Below are positions 11,695 to 55,530 of a DNA stretch of 64,000 bases, piece after piece (the first letter of the stretch is position 1; each line of letters begins with the position of its first letter). The notes beneath the pieces are model-generated. The model ran no database searches and was not told the DNA's origin. It saw only the letters and a list, made by a program, of their open reading frames with translations. Origin of the DNA: Sistotremastrum niveocremeum HHB9708 (Eukaryota > Basidiomycota > Agaricomycetes > Sistotremastrales > Sistotremastraceae); the NCBI GenBank assembly GCA_001630475.1, contig KV419423.1:62001-126000 (forward strand). Direction: 5' to 3'. The position numbers were made by a program, and so were the translations under genes.

Positions 11695-14600
11695 CTAGGT
11701 CAAGGCGGCTTCATCTGTCTGAAGCGGAAGCTGGCCCACGGCAAGAGATCGATCGAGCGCTGCTATCTTTTCTTCACACATTTTGATCCTGGAAGGACTT
11801 TCCGAGTACAAGGAACAGGCTCTTTGCCAGTGAACTTTCGCCTCGGCTGTATCACCTTCAACGACGTTCAGATCACCAAGACTGATGAGCACATCGGCTA
11901 ACGACTTCTTGACGTCTAGGTGTTGGAGCACCTCGTACGCCGCCAAGTAGCAGGCGCGGGCGACACTATATTCGTGCAGCTTGAGTTGCACATCTCCCAT
12001 TTTCTTGACAATGATGGCGAGGAAGAGCCGATCGCTCGCCTTTCCGAAAATAACGCAAGCAACGATGAGGTGCGACATCGCAGTCTCCGTACGACCTTGG
12101 ACGAGAGCGACGTCCGCCAAACCTATTATCGCTTCAGCATCGCGCGTGCTCCCCCCTTCGTTGCCGGCACGGAACAATTTTCTTGCTTCAGTGAAGTGAG
12201 TCCATGCTGTTATGGGATTCCCGCGGATCAACTCCGCCTCTCCCATAGCTGTGAGGCAGGCTGCTTGCTCACGAGGCCAAGAAAGTTCCGTCCATTGTCG
12301 AAAAGATAGGTGAAAGTCTGTCATGGCACCTTCCACATCTCCCCTCTCCAAGCGCATTTTGCCCATGGCTACGTTGACTACGGTCATCCAATCTTTGAGT
12401 CCACATCTAGCGAAGATCTCGCGGGCTTCGTGGAATGTCTGTTCTGCTAGGCCAAGGCGGGACTGTCGGAAGTAGATCCATGCCATGAAGAATATGTCTA
12501 TCGCGTAAGTATGAGAGCGTCCGGTAATCGCCAGCTTGATCTCAGCAGCTTTCTGAGCGAATTCCGCGGACAGCGAGAACGATGCACGTTTGAAATATAG
12601 CTGCGACAACGTCGAATATGCTCTGCCTTTGATGAGCGGAAAAGAGTAGGATTCGGCGATCGCAATGGCTTGGTAAGCAGCTTCCCGGGTCTCGTTCATC
12701 TGTTCCAACTCGGAATAAATGCTGGACAAGAGAGCCCACAATTCTGCCTGCTCTTTACGAAAAGCGAGAGTCGTGGCGATCGTCAGAGCTTCTTGAAGGA
12801 CGCCACGGGCTCTATAGAGATCTCCGATGCGCCTCCATGTGTCGCCATAGTTCCGAAGACAGCGGATATGATCTCGACGTGAGGTCAATGATTGAAAATT
12901 CTCTTTCTTGTGGATTTCCAAGGCTTCTTCGAGAAGTTGCAGATAGTGCTTCATATCATTTGCACCCATATTCTCGTACAGAGGAGCAAGGCATGCGGCT
13001 TCGAGCTCTTTATCGGATATTTCTTTGGCCGCGTTGAGCGCTGTCTGAAGAAGGGTGTAAATCAAACCCGGTGTGGCATCGTCAGAAAATAATTGCAGGT
13101 TGATAGCGGCTCTGACAAGTTCCCTAATCAGGACGTGCTGTGAAAAGCCATGAGATATGACAACGCATAAGTTGGTCATCTGAGTGCGCATATCACGCAG
13201 TCTTTCAACATTCTCAAAAACATGGCGCTCGACGTCCACAGACTCGATCAGCGCCAGGAAATGTTTCGCGACAGGAAGAAAGGATGAGACGCTGACTGGA
13301 TGATGGGCTTTGATGAATTCCCGAATGGGGGACAACGAGCGCAGACGAGGTGATAGATTGCCTTGCGGGCACGTACCCTGCTGCACCAGAGCTACTTGAC
13401 GCAACGACGTTGTTGCGCCAGGCACAGTCGAAGGATCTTTACTCATCGCGACAAGGTCTTCAGGCAATGCGCCATCCGGGAGCAGAGAGAGAATTTGAAG
13501 GATAGTGAGGCTAGAGGGATTGGAGCGAAGGCGTTCGGAAGATAAGGAGACCTGAATGGACACATCTACACTCGATGTACGGCTATCCCATCCTCTCGTC
13601 AACATAGCCGTTTTCTCTTCTTTCCATTGCTGAAGGAGGTCTCGACAGGAGTGTCCCTGAGCTAGATTCGCCATCAAGGTGACGGCTAGTGGCACATTTT
13701 CTAAAGCGGCCAACAGTTCAGGAAGATCAGCATCATCTTCAGGTACGTCGGAAATAGCGGTGAACGTCCGCTTGGCGGAAATATTATCCAAAGAGGGCAA
13801 CGGGCCCAAAAACGGCCGATGCCACGCGACACCAGATGGCCTTTCTGCACCTCTCATGGTCAACAGCAGATTAACTTGAGGAATGTCAACGAGAGCTTGA
13901 AGAAGCGCTTCAACTCCGGGGCGACTAGAAGCGGCTTCCCAGGGCGTTTCGAAATTATCAAGAACAATCATGATGGGTCTATCCAATATGCCCAGAACGC
14001 GCTTTAGATGACTTTCGAAATGCTTTTGCCTCGCCTGGACACTGATGGTGGTTGGTATAGGAATTCCGAACCGTTTGCCCAGGTGTATGACTAAAGCGTC
14101 GGCGTCCAGCAGCGATTCACAAGGGACAAAGTAGCGGTATGATCCAAAGTAGGACGCGACTTTCGGACTGTGAAGTACAGTCAAAGAAAGGCTGGTCTTC
14201 CCCATTCCTCCAGCTCCAAGTAACACGACGTGAGAGGCCGTTCTTTTAGAATTTTCGGTCACGTTTTCCAAGGTCATGGAGTCCACCACTTCCGCGACCG
14301 GTTCATCGCGACCGAAGAATATCTGGGGCGCTGGGGGTAATACTGATGGGAATCTGCGAGGCCCAAATGAGACAGAAGATTACGACGTTGGGATTAGTAA
14401 AGAGACCAACCTTCCACCAGTCACATCCTGGAATTGAAACATTGACTTTATTGTTCAGATGAGATTCAAAAAACGTCTTACTTCCTTCATGACGCTGGCC
14501 TTTAACAAGTCCTCCTGAGTTCGTTGGGCCGAGTCTATGGTGGTTCGGAGTTCGTCTTGATAGGATCCTAAGACTCGTCTGGACGACGCTGAGATAGACA

Positions 14601-48157: not shown

Positions 48158-49976
48158 TTAGACGCTCATGGAAGTAGCTGCGTCATCCTTCGAAATCTCC
48201 GGCACTGGAGGAACAGGGGCAGCATGCCCCGCCATTGATGTGTCCCCCGGCGGCACTGTTGAAGATGCAGCCTCTGAAGCAGGATTAGTCTCTTTCTCAG
48301 TCTGGGTACCTGGTGGCGGCGGATTGATTTTATTCGGGATTCCTAACATATCGCAGAACGTTTCCGTTTGCGGATTCGTGTACCAAGGAGCTATAGCGTC
48401 ACATTAGCCACACGGAACGCATGAAAGAAGATTGGCCTTACGCTGCAGGTGTCTTGGACGGTTCTCCTTACCTGGCCCCGGAGCCGTCGGAATAAACTGT
48501 TGCACATCCAATATTCGCTTGCTTGAGCCAACATTGTCTTGAACCCAGCTGAGCGCTTCCGAGATTTTTGATGCCACTTCTAAGTGACCAGGTAAGGGTA
48601 GTTGGGAGCGCGAGATTGAGAGGTATGGATGTAGAGCTCGGGAGATGGCTAGCCATTCGGAGTCGTACATCAGGTCTACGTTTTGCGCATCGTCTAGCGG
48701 ATCGCCAATATCCAGCACCTATCTGAAGTCAGCGATGGGTGTGGCAAGTGATACTGCAATCCGCACCTCGAGGAACGAGCGATGTTGCAGGCATTTATCC
48801 AGAGCGAGGAACCGCGTCTCAGACGCTTTCCGGCTCGTCTGAGGGTCGTCAAGGACAAGTTGTGCTTCCACCTCATCTTCTTCATCCTCCATCTGGATTT
48901 CGTCAGGATTGGAGGCGGGGGTGGCCTCCGGAACGGTCTAGGCGGTCGACATAAGCTTTTACTCTGGGCTGAGAAGCCTAGATGCTTACCTTGCTGGGTG
49001 GCTCTTCGTCAAAGTCATCGTCAATCATGATTTCATCCGGATTTTGGGGGGCAGGCTTCTGAGTCACAAAATTCTGCGGTGCACTTCCGTCGTGCCTCAC
49101 TACAGCTTCAAACTTGACGTGCATATGTGCGGAGAACCACCAACTGGGTTTCAGCTCTTTCAACAAGTCCATCATCGGGGGTGATCCAAGCTCTCCTTTC
49201 TCAATATCGGCCCTAAAGAACGGCTTCTTCTTCAACAGTCCATCCAAGTCTCCGTAATGTGCGATGCCAGTGGGCCAATCATGAGACATGAAGATATCGA
49301 CGGGGTTCGGTGATCTGGCCAGCTGTGATAGTTTGAACGTGGCGTAATCGCGAACATGATATATAGATCGCATGGAGGAGTTGTCGTATGGTATTCGTTC
49401 GTAGTATCCGAGATGACGATGGGCTCGGTTGTAAATCCCTGATGCTCCGGCAATGCGGAGACCGTTGACGTTAATGCACCCTGCTGCTCCCAAGTAGTAA
49501 ATGTTGGGTGCAAGCCATCCGCCATGGTATCTGCGATGTTTCAGGGAAGATCGAGAAGCAAAGGCCGCAAGAAAACGTACAGTTCCCAGAAATAGTTTGA
49601 TGCTTCGTGATTTCCTCCAATGACAATCGTAAGGACAGGCGCAATCTTCTCTCCAGTGTAGTATCTATCCGGGTAGAGATGAATATCACAGCTGGGTCGT
49701 GAGCAACCATCACGCACTTATGAAAGCCACCCAAAGCCCTATACTTGGCCGGTACCGCCATGCATTGTAGATCATTGTGGTTGCGAATGGCTTGGAAGTC
49801 TCCGCCGATGAGGACGAGAGGGACTTTATATTGATTTTTCTTCTCAAGAATTTGTAGGTGTTGGTAAATCTTGTCCAACTCTCCGTGACAACATCCTTGT
49901 ACGGCAATCTAATGACTTTCAGACAGAACATCTCCCTCTGCGATCCCGGCGTGATTTCAATTCGGCGTACCTTCAT
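48158..49976 (-). CDS. DBR1: RNA lariat debranching enzyme
   Basis: DBR1 hydrolyses the 2'-5' bond of excised intron lariats in the nucleus. The first exon is only ATGAAG; after an intron the protein reads [21 protein letters not shown]. Metallophosphoesterase motifs are in order: [46 protein letters not shown], and [11 protein letters not shown] near 49130. The loop [15 protein letters not shown], which recognises the branchpoint in this family, is present. The C-terminal domain includes [20 protein letters not shown] and ends with [15 protein letters not shown] and an acidic/Pro tail. All metal-binding residues appear intact. Several introns of about 50-60 nt. The neighbour 556 bp upstream is the first small acidic gene. 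Confidence 0.93.
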
Positions 49977-50532
49977 TTCAAAAAGATTGGAACAGCGTTT
50001 AGAATCCTCTGGGACAGTGGGACTGCCGCAATACACTCAGGTGGACGGGTCGATATCGAGGATTTGGGTCGAGCCCAATGTTCCAAACCTCGGCCCTGAG
50101 TCCAGTCTCCGACAACTTCAACTTGAACATTCCGAATTGAAACTACCCTACCAGTACACTTTGAAAGATTCTTCGACGTTACAACAAGAGACCAATATCC
50201 GAAAATCGCTAGCTGTACTAGTGTAAAAGCCGACACTAGCTACGCAGCGGATGACTGGCAATTCACAGTGTTCGGCGGGTATGCCATTATAATACAGAAT
50301 ACTTGGCTTTAATCGACGAGAACTGACAATAGTAGAACAGGATATATGTCTGATCTTACATGAGCCTCCATGTCAATCAAGCCCATATCCAAAGAATGCT
50401 GCATCTGACGGAAGTAACCCATATTGAGGATAACGACTAGAAATCAAACAGTCGGTCACACAGCAGCTTTTTCATTCGCTATGATCCTGGCATCAGGTGA
50501 GCAAGGTTTCTTATGCGACTAGTTGCCTTCGC
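49977..50532. other. Intergenic stretch, DBR1 promoter and 3' flank of pair-1 small gene
   Basis: No supported gene. It separates the conserved block from the duplicated divergent pairs. Confidence 0.5.
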
Positions 50533-51007
50533 TCACTGGAGTCTCTGTGCAGCAAATTCCAGGAATTCCGCATCGTCCACAGGCAGATTTTGCTGATCCC
50601 CGAAAGCTATTCGCAAAGCCTGAAAGGCTGCTTTCAGCTCTTCGTCTTGCTCTTGAGGGGTGTCGCTCGCTTGGCCACTAGAATGTGGAGGCACGATACC
50701 GCGGAGGATGTCCACAGTAAATCGCACACCCTCCACGGGAGTCTCTGCTTCGTCTGGCGCCGCCGGTTGCAAATTGGAGATACGAGACTCAGGCGTGCTA
50801 GCCTGCGAGGATGAAGTTCCGGCGTTTTTGTGATGGTCGAACGCAGTACGGAGTCTTTCGATTAGGCGGCCAAACGCATCGACGCGTTCAGGATGTTGCG
50901 ATGCAAGTCTTGAGACGATCGTTTCCAAGTCTGGACGAAAGTGTTAGCGGAGAGTACGCTAAATGTCTGCAATACGCACCTGGTAATGACTGTGCTGGAC
51001 GATCCAT
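50533..51007 (-). CDS. Small acidic protein of divergent pair 1
   Basis: Two exons (51007-50980, 50930-50533) encode 141 aa in frame. The N-terminus MDRPAQSLP is followed by a predicted amphipathic helix (DLETIVSRLASQ, FGRLIERLRTAFD), a Ser/Pro-rich linker, a conserved block VEGVRFTVDILRGIVPP, and an acidic helical C-terminus (EELKAAFQALRIAFGD, DDAEFLEFAAQRLQ). The 135-aa protein at 53507-53962 is its paralog: the C-terminal block AAFQALRIAFGD is identical, and the intron sits at the same place near codon 10. I recognise no known domain. The gene faces a bHLH gene across 941 bp, and the paralog faces the paralogous bHLH, so the two products probably work together. A direct complex is inference from layout and helix content. 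Confidence 0.75.
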
Positions 51008-51948
51008 GTTCTGCGAGATCGCTGTGTCTTTACGCGCGGGAAAAGGCGGGAAGTGATCTTCAATCCGAGGGGTGTAGGGTGAGCGGTGACTTGTCTTATA
51101 GCCTTACATTACTAATACCACCTTTCTTCTCAAAGCAGATGCTACAATAAGCCTGGATCACCCGCGCCGTGTGAGGCTCACGGTAGCATTCGGCGAAAGC
51201 TCCATGGCACCATGGCGTCCAGGGCCTTCTAATCAGAAAATTTCTCGGAAGAGTCAAATCAAGGTACCGTGATGCTCAGTGGAAAGCGGGACGAGTCCAA
51301 AGTAGGACTAGGGTCCAATCATCCTTCCATATCTTCTTGACATCGTACCATTGAGTACCCCGCCATGGCGTCGTGGATATAGCAGTGGCACAACCGTATC
51401 TGCTGACAGGGACGATTTCATGATTGGTCGGGTTTCCTGCTCCCTTGGAGGTATCCCGCTCTCCGAATCGATCTTCAGCTCGCACACTGGAACTCGAACC
51501 CTCAAATGGATATCCCCATGTATGTCGTACTACACTCCTTTCTACTCAAGATATCTGAAAGCTGAAAGACTGCCAGATTACGATCCTCATTCCTCGCAAT
51601 ACAAATCGCTGGCGGTGGAAAGCCGGAAGTCTTGAATTCGTCTCCAGCGCTCGGGATGTTCGAGTTCCGTCAGCCAACAGCATCGTCCCGCCCCGAACGT
51701 CATCCCTGGGAATGGAAGGCTCCATTACCCATCAGGCCATGACACGATGATATATCGAACAGCGCCCGAACAAGCCGATGGTCCAGTCGCAGATTCGGAG
51801 GAGGCGGTGGCCCAACTCCCAAGCCATAGATACGGTTCGGAGGTGGCAAATAAGAGTCGCTGCGAACGCCTTATCAGCCTCCCCACAATCTGTGCGATCT
51901 CTCACGTATCTATATCAACCCGTCAAGATTTGAAGACTTTGCAACTCA
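51008..51948. promoter_or_regulatory. Shared intergenic promoter region of pair 1
   Basis: Divergent promoters of the small acidic gene and bHLH gene 1. It contains CTCCATGGCACCATGGCGTC (about 51203), which resembles CATTGCACCATGGCGGTCTG (about 54161) in the pair-2 spacer, a possible conserved control site. Confidence 0.4.
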
Positions 51949-52707
51949 ATGGCATTCTTCCCTACTCTGGGCTCCGTGCCCAGTTTTCGTGACCCGCCCT
52001 TTCAGATCTCCGCGTCGCATGGTGAGCACAGAGTCTGGGTTTCTCTGATTATCAGTCGTTGACGTCTCCGTCCGTCTAGACGACACCTACGAATATCCTC
52101 TCCCTCATGGGGAACACTTGTACAATCCTGTCGGCGATCCGAACATGATTCACGTCGCAAATCGTACGTGGCAGGATTTGTGGTCATGGTTCTGTCATGC
52201 TCATTGTCTATTAGGTCTCGATGCCGCTTTACCCCAGTATGGCGCCAACGGCGTAGTCAGTCCAAGCGAACTGCAACTTCCGCCTCAGTGGTATCCTCAG
52301 TACCCTCCGGGGCCTACGTTTCCATACGCTTACGCCGGAAACAACATGTCCCCGATGTCTCCGGCGAGAAACACTGGTGGTCGTGGAGACAGAAATGCTC
52401 CCAGATTTTCTCCTCTCGCGGTACAAGATCACGGACTTCAGTTGGCAACACACCCCGCCCCCGGCAACCCGGCATCTCACCAACGGAACATCGAGAAGAG
52501 GGCTCGCGACAAGCTCAACAAGGCGATTCGCACTTTGCGTCAGGCAGTCGGTATGGTACCCGGACCTGTCCCGAAGCACAACGCCGACTTGCTTCTTCGT
52601 GCGGCCGAGATCATAGCGTGAGCTCACTGTGTTCATATACTTCAACCATTCTAACTTCAGCCCCCAGCAACTACGAATCTGAGGAGGTTGAGTTGGACTC
52701 TGAGTGA
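51949..52707 (+). CDS. Basic helix-loop-helix protein, pair 1
   Basis: Four exons (51949-52021, 52080-52163, 52215-52617, 52668-52707) sum to 600 nt, 199 aa. The start is MAFFPTLGSVPSFRDPPFQ; the first 130 residues are Pro/Tyr/Gly-rich and probably disordered (LPPQWYPQYPPGPTFPYAYA). The C-terminal part is a bHLH domain: a basic region HQRNIEKRARDKLN, helix 1 KAIRTLRQAVGMV, a loop with GPVPKH, and helix 2 NADLLLRAAEIIANYE. The pattern E-x-R-x-R-x-x-LN is that of DNA-binding bHLH factors. The last intron interrupts the codon after II in helix 2, and the same intron is found in the pair-2 paralog. A very short acidic tail follows, with no leucine zipper. DNA binding as a homo- or heterodimer is expected of the fold; the target and role are unknown. 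Confidence 0.78.
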
Positions 52708-53506
52708 CGGCGTCATTATAAGAATAAAATATGCGAGGTGGGATGTGGTGGTGTGGATTACTGGTGAGATGATTTTTTTTAAAAAATAAGCTGCTCGTGC
52801 GTGGTGTGTTTGCGAGATGCGTAGTTCAAAATTCATGAATGTATCAGTGTGTAGACTAGCAGTTCGAGTTACGGAACACCTATAAATACATAACTACACT
52901 CCGAGAACAAACTTGAGCTTTACAGCGATTTCGCCTTCATTTGATGACTCTACAATTATGGCACAAGATGCCCGACAAATGCTGAATGACTTTGAATTCA
53001 CACCGACCTATCACAACATATTCTTGCTGTTCATTCGTGTTTCAATCTTCCAAACCTTATTCGGATTTACTATACGACAACAATGTCAAGAGCCTTGGAT
53101 CAGATGATCTCTGAAAATGAATCTCAACAAACAACGGCAAGCGATCGTTTATGATTTTTCCTGAATGTGTCGAATATAACATTGCTCGGGCTGATATCGG
53201 AAACCAAGCCTTTGATGGCTCTTCGTTGGATCCGCGAAAAAAACTGAGGGAGATTCAGATTGATGCAAGCTGTTACAATGTACAATGGGATGAATGGCAT
53301 GGTGGGAACTGGAAACCGAACGGATGAAAACGATCTATGATTATGTTGGGACACAGCATCAAAGTGCATGGCCGCGATACAGCACAATCAGCCCCTCAAG
53401 GTGCTGTTGCCGATGTGATAAGCTGGTTTGTCGATTTACACCTTTCGATAGCTATCTGTCTTCACAGATATCAGAATCAGGTAGCACAAATTCTGGAAAG
53501 CTTCGC
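52708..53506. other. Stretch between the duplicated pairs; small TATA-linked frame
   Basis: No firm gene. A TATAAATA box at 52881 precedes an ATG at 52958 that opens a 49-residue frame (MAQDARQMLNDFEF, ending QQCQEPWIR) with a short hydrophobic stretch. It has no CaaX end, so it is not a pheromone precursor of the usual type. It may be chance. Confidence 0.35.
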
Positions 53507-53962
53507 TTACTGCAGCTTCTGCGCGGTAAACATGAGAAACTCCTCGTCGTCTTCAGGAAGAGTTACGTCATCTCCAAATGCTATCCGTAGGGCTTGAAAA
53601 GCGGCGTCAAGCTCTTCTCCCTTGTCAGAGTCGACCGAGCACGCCTGATGATGCGATTTGACGGGCAACATTCCCTGAAGAATGTCGACGGTGAGACTCA
53701 GCCCTTCTATCGGGGAATTCCCATCGAAGTGAACATTCCGTTCAGGGAGCTGACTTCGCACGAGATCCGCGCAGCTGAGGATATGAGGGTCGATGGCAAG
53801 GCGAAGTCGCTGAATGAGACGATCTAGCGCAAGAATGCCACCCGGATTACAACGTGCGAGTTCGTCGATAATGGAGTTCAAATCTACACAAAAAATGAGA
53901 GATATGCACATTGCATGAAGTGGGTACTGACTCTCGAATGGCTGTGCTGGCATTTGCGACAT
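53507..53962 (-). CDS. Small acidic protein of divergent pair 2
   Basis: Two exons (53962-53932, 53883-53507) encode 135 aa. MSQMPAQPFENLNSIIDELA leads to LDRLIQRLRLAID, a variable linker, IEGLSLTVDILQGMLP, and the acidic C-terminus EELDAAFQALRIAFGD, LPEDDEEFLMFTAQKLQ. Paralogous to the 141-aa protein at 50533-51007: helix motifs and intron position are kept, while the linker between them is unalignable by eye. Strong divergence of linker and N-terminus with conserved helices suggests that specificity has changed while the fold was kept. It is divergent from bHLH gene 2 (827 bp apart). Function is unknown; a partner of the adjacent bHLH is inferred. Confidence 0.75.
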   Translation of the reverse strand: MSQMPAQPFESQYPLHAMCISLIFCVDLNSIIDELARCNPGGILALDRLIQRLRLAIDPHILSCADLVRSQLPERNVHFDGNSPIEGLSLTVDILQGMLPVKSHHQACSVDSDKGEELDAAFQALRIAFGDDVTLPEDDEEFLMFTAQKLQ

Positions 53963-54789
53963 GGCTTAAAGTCCTCGAGTTGCCCTGACACGAATCCCAG
54001 ATTGGACTTCTGAGAGCCTGGCTGTCTGAGCAGATGAGCAGCTCCGTATTTATGATTGCTTTCCATGGCCACACTCATGGCAAATACTCGAATGGAAGAT
54101 ATCAAGGCCTTTCATCAGCTCCGTGACACCATCTGAAGAGTGCCATTGCCATCTCATGCCATTGCACCATGGCGGTCTGAGGCCGAGAGACCAGAAGAAG
54201 CCGAGTTGCGGCATCGTTCAGGCACAAAGAAGCCGGCTAAGTGTATGCTACGGAGCCGGAATTCGGGTCCAACAGATCACCGGAGCCATCATCAGCCCAT
54301 GGTCTTGCAGTGGCTTCCAATGGTTCTATGGCATTTTCAACGAAACCATGGCCTCGTACTTTCTCTCATGACACGGCTTGAACATTACTATACAAGGATC
54401 ACTCTGCTCAAGAGCTGCGTCAATTAATTGACTCTGGATTTTTTACAAGATGACTCTGAATCGGCTAAGCTTGGCACGACTAGGATCAGGAGTCGGACCC
54501 AGTCGATGATGCTGTCAGTACAATGGGATCATGCGCCCCGAATGCTTCCCCCATGCGCCGGGTGTGGCAATTGCCCGGTCCCACCAGAGCGCCCAACGTT
54601 TTTTTTTGGGACTTGGCCATGGCTTGAGTCAATTTTGATGATATAGCACGCACTGCCGTACCATTCAAGCTCTTCAGTTGAGTTGTAGTCCGTCTTACAC
54701 GTTTGGAGTACATCGCAGAACCACCGACCCATCCCGTCTACTCAAGCTCACAAATATTTGGGAATACTCCCAAACTCAATTGTTCCAAA
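53963..54789. promoter_or_regulatory. Shared intergenic promoter region of pair 2
   Basis: Divergent promoters of the second small acidic gene and bHLH gene 2. The CATTGCACCATGGCGGTCTG block near 54161 resembles a block in the pair-1 spacer. Otherwise the two spacers have diverged. Confidence 0.4.
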
Positions 54790-55530
54790 ATGACGGAAAC
54801 ACTTGTGTCCAGTCCTCTGACTAGATCGAGAGCTTTCCATCACTCTTATGGGATGCTGTCTCCTGGATTCGCCAATGTAAATCCATATAGGCCTCCGTCG
54901 GCTGAGATGCATTTCCTTGGGACGTACGGCGAATCTCAGCCGCTTCAGCCTCAAGGGAGAGGCATGGCCGTACCGGAAGTCCCAGCTAGTGCATACCTGA
55001 GCCGTGAGTTATGCCAATCAGTATCATCGGGAAGCTAGCTCATGTTGTGCTCCGTCAACAGCTCCCTTCGAACCAACTGGCATGGCTTCCAATTTTCAAA
55101 GCAGGCCTTATCAAACGTCCGAAGGCCGTGACCACACTCTTTATGCCGGCACCGGATCTACCAACACCGCCAATCCACAACGTCCAATCGGCGAGGCTTT
55201 CAGCCCTGCCCCTTCGGTTCGCTCCATGAGAAGCGGTTATTCCGCTAACGATAGGGGTGGTGGCGTGCATCCCTATTCATCCCAGAAGACGGCCGAGAAG
55301 AAATGTCGGGACAAACTGGCCAGGGCCTATGAAGCTCTCGAGAATGCGGTGAGGAAGTTTACAGGGACCGTGCCCAGAGGCAGGGCTGAACTCCTATCCC
55401 TTGCTGCCGCAATTATCGCGTGAGTGGCATTTGATTTACTGACAGTCGCCGTCCTAAGTCGTGATACAGGGCTTATGTGAGCGAGCAGGAGGAGAATTCA
55501 CAGGGAGGAGCGTCGAGCAGCAATTTTTGA
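54790..55530 (+). CDS. Basic helix-loop-helix protein, pair 2
   Basis: Three exons (54790-55003, 55062-55419, 55470-55530) sum to 633 nt, 210 aa. It starts MTETLVSSPLTRSRAFHHSY; about 140 disordered residues follow, rich in Ser, Gly and Pro (SPAPSVRSMRSGYSANDRGG). The C-terminal bHLH has a basic region SSQKTAEKKCRDKLA, helix 1 RAYEALENAVRKF, a loop TGTVPRG, and helix 2 RAELLSLAAAIIAAYVSEQ. The acidic Ser-rich tail ends SSSNF. Compared with bHLH gene 1, the basic region keeps the E-K-x-x-RDKL core but loses an Arg (KKC for KRA), so DNA contacts may differ. The intron in helix 2 is in the same codon. It belongs to the second divergent pair. Confidence 0.77.

Follow-up and report, generated by a model that had tools for sequence, protein, structure and literature searches.

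Divergent gene pairs for bHLH-type proteins and putative Id-like HLH partners in the basidiomycete Sistotremastrum niveocremeum

We analysed a 64,000-nucleotide stretch (the window) of the genome of Sistotremastrum niveocremeum HHB9708 (34.7 Mb, 111 contigs), namely positions 62001-126000 of contig KV419423.1, here called C30. It carries two divergent gene pairs, at 50456-52707 (pair A) and 53396-55530 (pair B), in each of which a minus-strand gene for a small acidic protein lies opposite a plus-strand gene of basic helix-loop-helix (bHLH) type. We see in them an unusual, well-delimited gene-pair family, in which a bHLH-type protein and a probable Id-like helix-loop-helix (HLH) partner would be encoded on either side of a common control region. 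Its architecture and homology are supported by the sequence, as are the layout, the common intron position and spacing of both families, the linkage in three pairs and the intergenic element; the mechanism, with splicing, heterodimerisation, inhibition and autoregulation, we infer. Our preference, held with slightly better than even confidence, is for cognate bHLH/Id-like heterodimer pairs that were duplicated as units and are probably co-regulated.

Gene models of the two pairs and a third copy

The first-pass annotation of this DNA had described the divergent layout, the strands, the open frames and the paralogy of both members, all of which held on re-examination. In our models, for which all introns were predicted from sequence alone, the start codons lie 941 bp apart in pair A (51007 and 51949) and 827 bp apart in pair B (53962 and 54790). 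The features are as follows.

50456-51007, minus strand: putative small acidic Id-like HLH gene A; exons 51007-50980, 50930-50537 and 50486-50456; 150 amino acids (aa), isoelectric point (pI) 4.75
50487-50536, minus strand: predicted helix-2 intron of small gene A; 50 bases, phase 2, GTGAGC...TGCCAG, containing TGA
51008-51948, no strand: putative bidirectional intergenic region of pair A; 3 CCATGG sites
51949-52707, plus strand: bHLH-type gene A; exons 51949-52021, 52080-52163, 52215-52617 and 52668-52707; 199 aa, pI 6.04
53396-53962, minus strand: putative small acidic Id-like HLH gene B; exons 53962-53932, 53883-53511 and 53459-53396; 155 aa, pI 4.59
53460-53510, minus strand: predicted helix-2 intron of small gene B; 51 bases, phase 2, containing TAA
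53963-54789, no strand: putative bidirectional intergenic region of pair B; 5 CCATGG sites
54790-55530, plus strand: bHLH-type gene B; exons 54790-55003, 55062-55419 and 55470-55530; 210 aa, pI 9.04

The sizes previously given for the bHLH-type proteins (199 and 210 aa) agreed with these exon models, while those of the small proteins (141 and 135 aa) did not. The stops assumed for the latter, at 50533 (TGA) and 53507 (TAA), overlap a phase-2 GT donor (CTC CA/GTGAGC and CTG CA/GTAAGC, the stroke marking the putative exon end), and since small and bHLH-type genes agree in the helix-2 residue at which a phase-2 donor stands, we take these stops to be intronic. Proteins ending at the first in-frame stop were rejected, a donor-like GT being present at the homologous codon in 7/7 small genes. 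The small genes probably do not end at 50533 and 53507, and splicing would add a third exon, bringing the predicted sizes to 150 and 155 aa. The added exons of small gene A, small gene B and a third copy described below have the motif IA.E[KR] in common (peptides IIANEKAAV, QIAIERCKSTNQ... and EIAAEKASQ...).

The introns of small gene A are of GT-AG type, in phases 1 and 2, and its C-terminus is HLH-like and lacks a basic region. In bHLH-type gene A, the nearer acceptor of the last intron leads to stops and the next one (CCCCAG) gives the 199-aa protein, which unlike its paralogue B is not basic overall. The acceptor of the last intron in small gene B (GTGAAG) is the least certain part of the models, because it was picked by likeness of the downstream peptide. 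Between pairs A and B, identity is 46% in exon 2 of the small genes and 48% in the HLH region of the bHLH-type genes.

A third pair was found 114 kb away on the same contig (C30:226.5-228.8 kb). It is likewise divergent, with start codons 1167 bp apart and a small protein of 141 aa in its spliced model. In the search of the genome with its own small protein, the small family recurs beyond chance (E 1.6e-23 for the neighbour and 1.5e-16 for the third copy). A small gene faces a bHLH-type gene in 3/3 cases on C30, and all six genes have an early phase-1 intron together with the phase-2 intron in helix 2, bHLH-type gene A having one additional phase-1 intron. When 20 kb around the third pair were compared with the window, the pair was the only convincing match; two further matches (E 4e-4 and 6e-4) look incidental.

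Small proteins and bHLH-type proteins compared

We catalogued 22 diverged HLH genes in the genome, seven small and 15 of bHLH type. This census is a lower bound: queries were single proteins, the best candidates were scored, and subtypes b5, b6, b7 and d were not used as queries. Outside C30, the relatives lie on contig C18 (four small and two HLH-type genes within the 90-142 kb examined) and on contig C50 (ten HLH-type genes or exons within 136-186 kb, including one that forms the tail of a kinase-like gene). A search of viral contigs for relatives led nowhere.

Gene structure connects the two families. The C-terminal 40 residues of the small proteins align with both helices of the facing protein and the loop between them, and a phase-2 GT interrupts the homologous helix-2 codon in 20/22 catalogued genes (7/7 small and 13/15 bHLH-type, the exceptions being both bHLH-type genes on C18). 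In the 16 genes with a loop proline (seven small, nine bHLH-type; the d1-d3 and k genes have none), the distance from this proline to the interrupted codon is always 15 residues and the phase always 2. Profiles point the same way: the small family scored 19.5 against the bHLH-type family over 39 columns (hhalign), a value reached by none of 500 column shuffles (best 16.3), and 7.1 when reversed. We regard intron position and proline spacing as stronger evidence than the profiles and take them to indicate common descent of the two families.

The C-terminus of the small proteins is most likely, judging from these comparisons, a diverged HLH without basic region, as in Id proteins. Its net charge is -4 to -8 in 7/7 small proteins (the HLH of the three C30 partners has +1 to +4), and the segment preceding helix 1 carries a net charge of 0 to -3 in 7/7, so that no basic region is present. 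The earlier proposal of a bHLH protein with a helical partner thus holds for the duplicated two-gene cassette and for the helical nature of the partner; the partner does not seem unrelated, since it looks like an HLH protein itself by intron position, loop-proline spacing and profiles.

The bHLH-type proteins resemble the bHLH superfamily in their two amphipathic helices with a loop and in their similarity to known bHLHs. Compared with five canonical bHLH segments from this genome, the family scored 31.8 (hhalign), and 0/300 shuffles reached this value (best 16.4). AlphaFold2 models, built from two-sequence alignments, placed helices at 85-112 and 120-133 in bHLH A and at 92-109 and 120-130 in small A, both with low confidence. 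In the C30 proteins the basic region is reduced to Q-[RK]-x-x-E-x-x-[AC]-R: in alignments of the three genes, E9 and R13 are kept and R12 is replaced by A or C. In E-box binders, position 12 is R. The Tyr typical of SREBP at this position is absent from the three C30 genes and was found only in C50 genes of types b7, c and d.

A genome-wide search with Pfam HLH gave nine matches (C3, C4 with two, C5, C6, C8 and C21 with three), none of them among the 22 diverged genes and none on C30, C18 or C50. For other mushrooms 9 to 12 bHLH genes are published, according to the sections of PMC11855202 consulted, so the nine matches look like a normal complement and the diverged family like an addition to it. 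Surveys based on Pfam can therefore miss a whole set of HLH-like genes, here 22 besides the nine.

Several results weigh against our preferred reading. The small motif with its halves swapped still scores 16.0, which means that part of the signal between the families is generic helix composition; the score also falls to 16.7 when the helix-2 extension is added, and for both reasons the profile evidence alone is moderate. Against canonical bHLHs, the small family scored 9.5. Among Pfam models, Nro1_C alone was matched by the small family more than once, weakly and under the cut-off (E 0.037 and 0.043). In Pfam scans of 14 of the 22 catalogued genes, bHLH A alone matched the HLH model, in helix 1 only (E 0.15, 12.3 bits; cut-off 20.7). 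The AlphaFold2 models are poor, with a mean predicted local distance difference test score (pLDDT) of 57 for the bHLH A exon and 47 for small A. PDB profile searches with both families returned no HLH protein, nor did Foldseek with the bHLH A model. With A or C at position 12, DNA binding is uncertain. Finally, an HLH-type gene stands divergently before only two of the four small genes on C18, and the 50 kb of C50 examined yielded no gene of the small type.

These points bear on two other explanations. One holds that the small proteins are not HLH proteins at all and belong to an unrelated acidic helical family that came to resemble them by convergence of amphipathic helices. The swapped-halves control and the missing Pfam or PDB HLH matches speak for it, yet convergence would have to account for the same intron residue and phase in helix 2 and the same 15-residue loop-proline spacing in both families, and we think it very improbable. 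The other, which we hold to be possible but doubtful, is an ordinary lineage-specific bHLH expansion with a truncated, functionally independent paralogue: linkage would come from tandem duplication and the products would not cooperate. A tandem origin is indeed plain, structure searches and models lend the complex no support, and the relatives on C18 and C50 are often unpaired. What recurs 114 kb away, however, is a pair and not single genes (with synonymous divergence, dS, saturated in 3/6 C30 comparisons), and the same intergenic element is kept in all three pairs.

Intergenic element and proposed mechanism

CCATGG occurs 3, 5 and 5 times in the intergenic regions of pair A, pair B and the third pair (936, 829 and 1216 bp as cut), compared with 36 times in 142,800 bp elsewhere, and ranks first of the 64 palindromic hexamers in each of the three regions. 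Dinucleotide shuffles of the regions, cut at the start codons, reached the observed count in 8, 0 and 0 of 2000 cases, respectively. The three sites of pair A are not exceptional by themselves, since three are likewise found in each of two further 941-bp stretches of the window. In six intergenic stretches from C18 and C50, CCATGG is nearly absent (1, 0, 0, 1, 0 and 0 occurrences), which makes the enrichment a C30 feature.

The best local match between these otherwise hardly alignable regions is a 16-mer, with the following copies in the window.

51202-51217, plus strand: intergenic element CCATGGCACCATGGCG of pair A; exact copy, 195 bp upstream of the small A start
54159-54174, plus strand: intergenic element CCATTGCACCATGGCG of pair B; one mismatch, 197 bp upstream of the small B start

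In the third pair the 16-mer lies inverted, 255 bp from the start of the small gene. The 34.7 Mb contain two exact copies of CCATGGCACCATGGCG, in pair A and the third pair, and two with one mismatch, in pair B and on contig C54. Allowing up to two mismatches, there are 16 matches in the genome (two exact, two with one mismatch and 12 with two) vs 3 for the backwards control. No HLH gene was recognised in the 5.5 kb surrounding the C54 copy, which may be a target or chance. A looser pattern, CCATGGNNCCATGG, was set aside as uninformative by itself, with 7 places in the genome and also 7 for its backwards control. A two-mismatch copy of the 16-mer lies at C14:510224-510239, 1.6 kb from a homeodomain pair; it may be due to chance, as there are twelve such copies in the genome.

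We propose that each cassette is a two-gene unit with one bidirectional promoter, encoding a cognate HLH pair. The bHLH-type protein would retain a reduced basic region and the acidic protein the HLH only. Through this HLH the acidic protein would bind its partner, in a predicted dimer with one DNA-contacting half, and so titrate or modulate it in a pair-specific way, like an Id protein. The CCATGG-rich element probably serves to control both genes, and the bHLH-type protein itself may bind there. This last point is a guess, and CCATGG does not fit CANNTG. The units would have been duplicated whole and then diverged. Gene pairs that are duplicated whole, together with a common operator-like element, would be a natural system in which to follow the evolution of HLH pairing specificity.

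Mating-type alternative, known systems and other genes

The first-pass annotation had also suggested a recognition role resembling that of mating-type loci and had read the divergence of the proteins as selection for specificity; neither suggestion was sustained. Under such a role, multi-allelic pairs would form a mating-type-like or allorecognition cassette, and dimerisation of partners from different pairs or nuclei would be the non-self signal. Members of the family are arrayed in several clusters, and the basidiomycete HD1/HD2 loci described in the consulted sections of PMC8305134 are likewise divergent, duplicated pairs of transcription-factor-type genes that diverged outside the core domain, including their N-termini (3/3 C30 pairs are divergent). 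The domain here is an HLH, however, not a homeodomain, and the genes of known mating-type loci lie elsewhere: a search with Homeobox_KN (PF05920; PF00046 was not searched) gave three matches, two on C14 (opposite strands, 3.6 kb apart) and one on C69, and none on C30, C18 or C50, while STE3 receptor matches were found on C13 and C35 and none on C30, C18 or C50. Location in a known kind of mating-type locus was rejected on these grounds. Within this one genome, nonsynonymous divergence (dN) was lower than dS in 8/8 comparisons with estimable dS, out of 14 run; dS could not be estimated in the other six, among them three of the six comparisons between C30 genes, where it was saturated. Given the position of the homeobox and STE3 genes and dN < dS, a mating-type role and diversifying selection are without positive support, and we judge this explanation unlikely. 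A speculative idea, in our opinion quite unlikely, is that the genome has, besides its homeodomain code, another heterodimer code based on HLH proteins: the cognate bHLH/Id-like pairs and arrays on three contigs would read partner identity (own vs foreign nucleus or cell) by HLH pairing specificity, each group of pairs having its own operator, of CCATGG type on C30.

Animal Id and similar plant HLH-only proteins are small, have an HLH without basic region and partner bHLH factors. The small proteins described here seem alike in being HLH proteins without basic region that are predicted to pair with a bHLH protein, and differ in that the HLH-only gene adjoins a single bHLH-type gene in divergent orientation, both being duplicated together. 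Within a limited literature search we know of no fungal precedent for an HLH-only partner: no fungal HLH-only protein partnering a bHLH factor was named among the titles listed, PMC12506109 and PMC6316066 describing DNA-binding HLH proteins in the sections consulted, and no listed title dealt with divergent bHLH/HLH pairs in basidiomycetes. Neurospora NUC-1/NUC-3 offers two bHLH proteins in one circuit, a possible heterodimer and a NUC-3 site in its own promoter; each of the two has its own DNA-binding motif, however, and a divergent pair does not appear in the sections of PMC12506109 consulted. Aspergillus UrdA is similarly a lineage-restricted fungal HLH-type regulator, but has 371 aa and a predicted DNA-binding HLH, is not HLH-only and is not described as paired in the consulted sections of PMC6316066.

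Some observations hint that the diverged family descended from an SREBP-type domain. The genome's SREBP-like gene (L004, C4:531349-531573; labelled so by us from its Tyr and a hydrophobic stretch) has its phase-2 donor where helix 2 ends, at the same position as the diverged family, while in canonical genes L002, L005 and L006 the donor lies earlier in helix 2 and L001 reads through. Tyr at basic-region position 12, carried by some C50 relatives, is a mark of SREBP according to the abstract of PMC5053422. The proteins of the family differ from fungal SREBPs (Sre1/SrbA type) in being short and in showing no membrane part. Profile scores do not single the SREBP-like gene out: it is best for the whole bHLH-type family only with the loop cut out (26.1 vs 19.3-22.1 for the rest).

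The C50 relatives show features of their own. At C50:148-162 kb (L025, L045 and L046) there is an array of HLH-type genes of b6, c and d types, in repeated order, and types b6, b7 and d have a common ending, G-x-x-P-x-A-stop, after the helix-2 intron. Tandem kinase-like exons were recognised by eye at C50:163.9-166.5 kb (L046:2917-5491, minus strand), with two kinase-type regions, one having HGN for the usual HRD; the last exon of the kinase-like gene (weak kinase match, E 0.0097) continues as an HLH-like tail, in which the phase-2 GT is again present.

Elsewhere in the window, exons at 48978-49908 (minus strand), adjoining pair A, have weak matches to calcineurin-like phosphoesterases, under the cut-off, and an open frame of 894 aa at 11698-14379 (minus strand) is NLR-like, with weak STAND/AAA NTPase and clear TPR matches.

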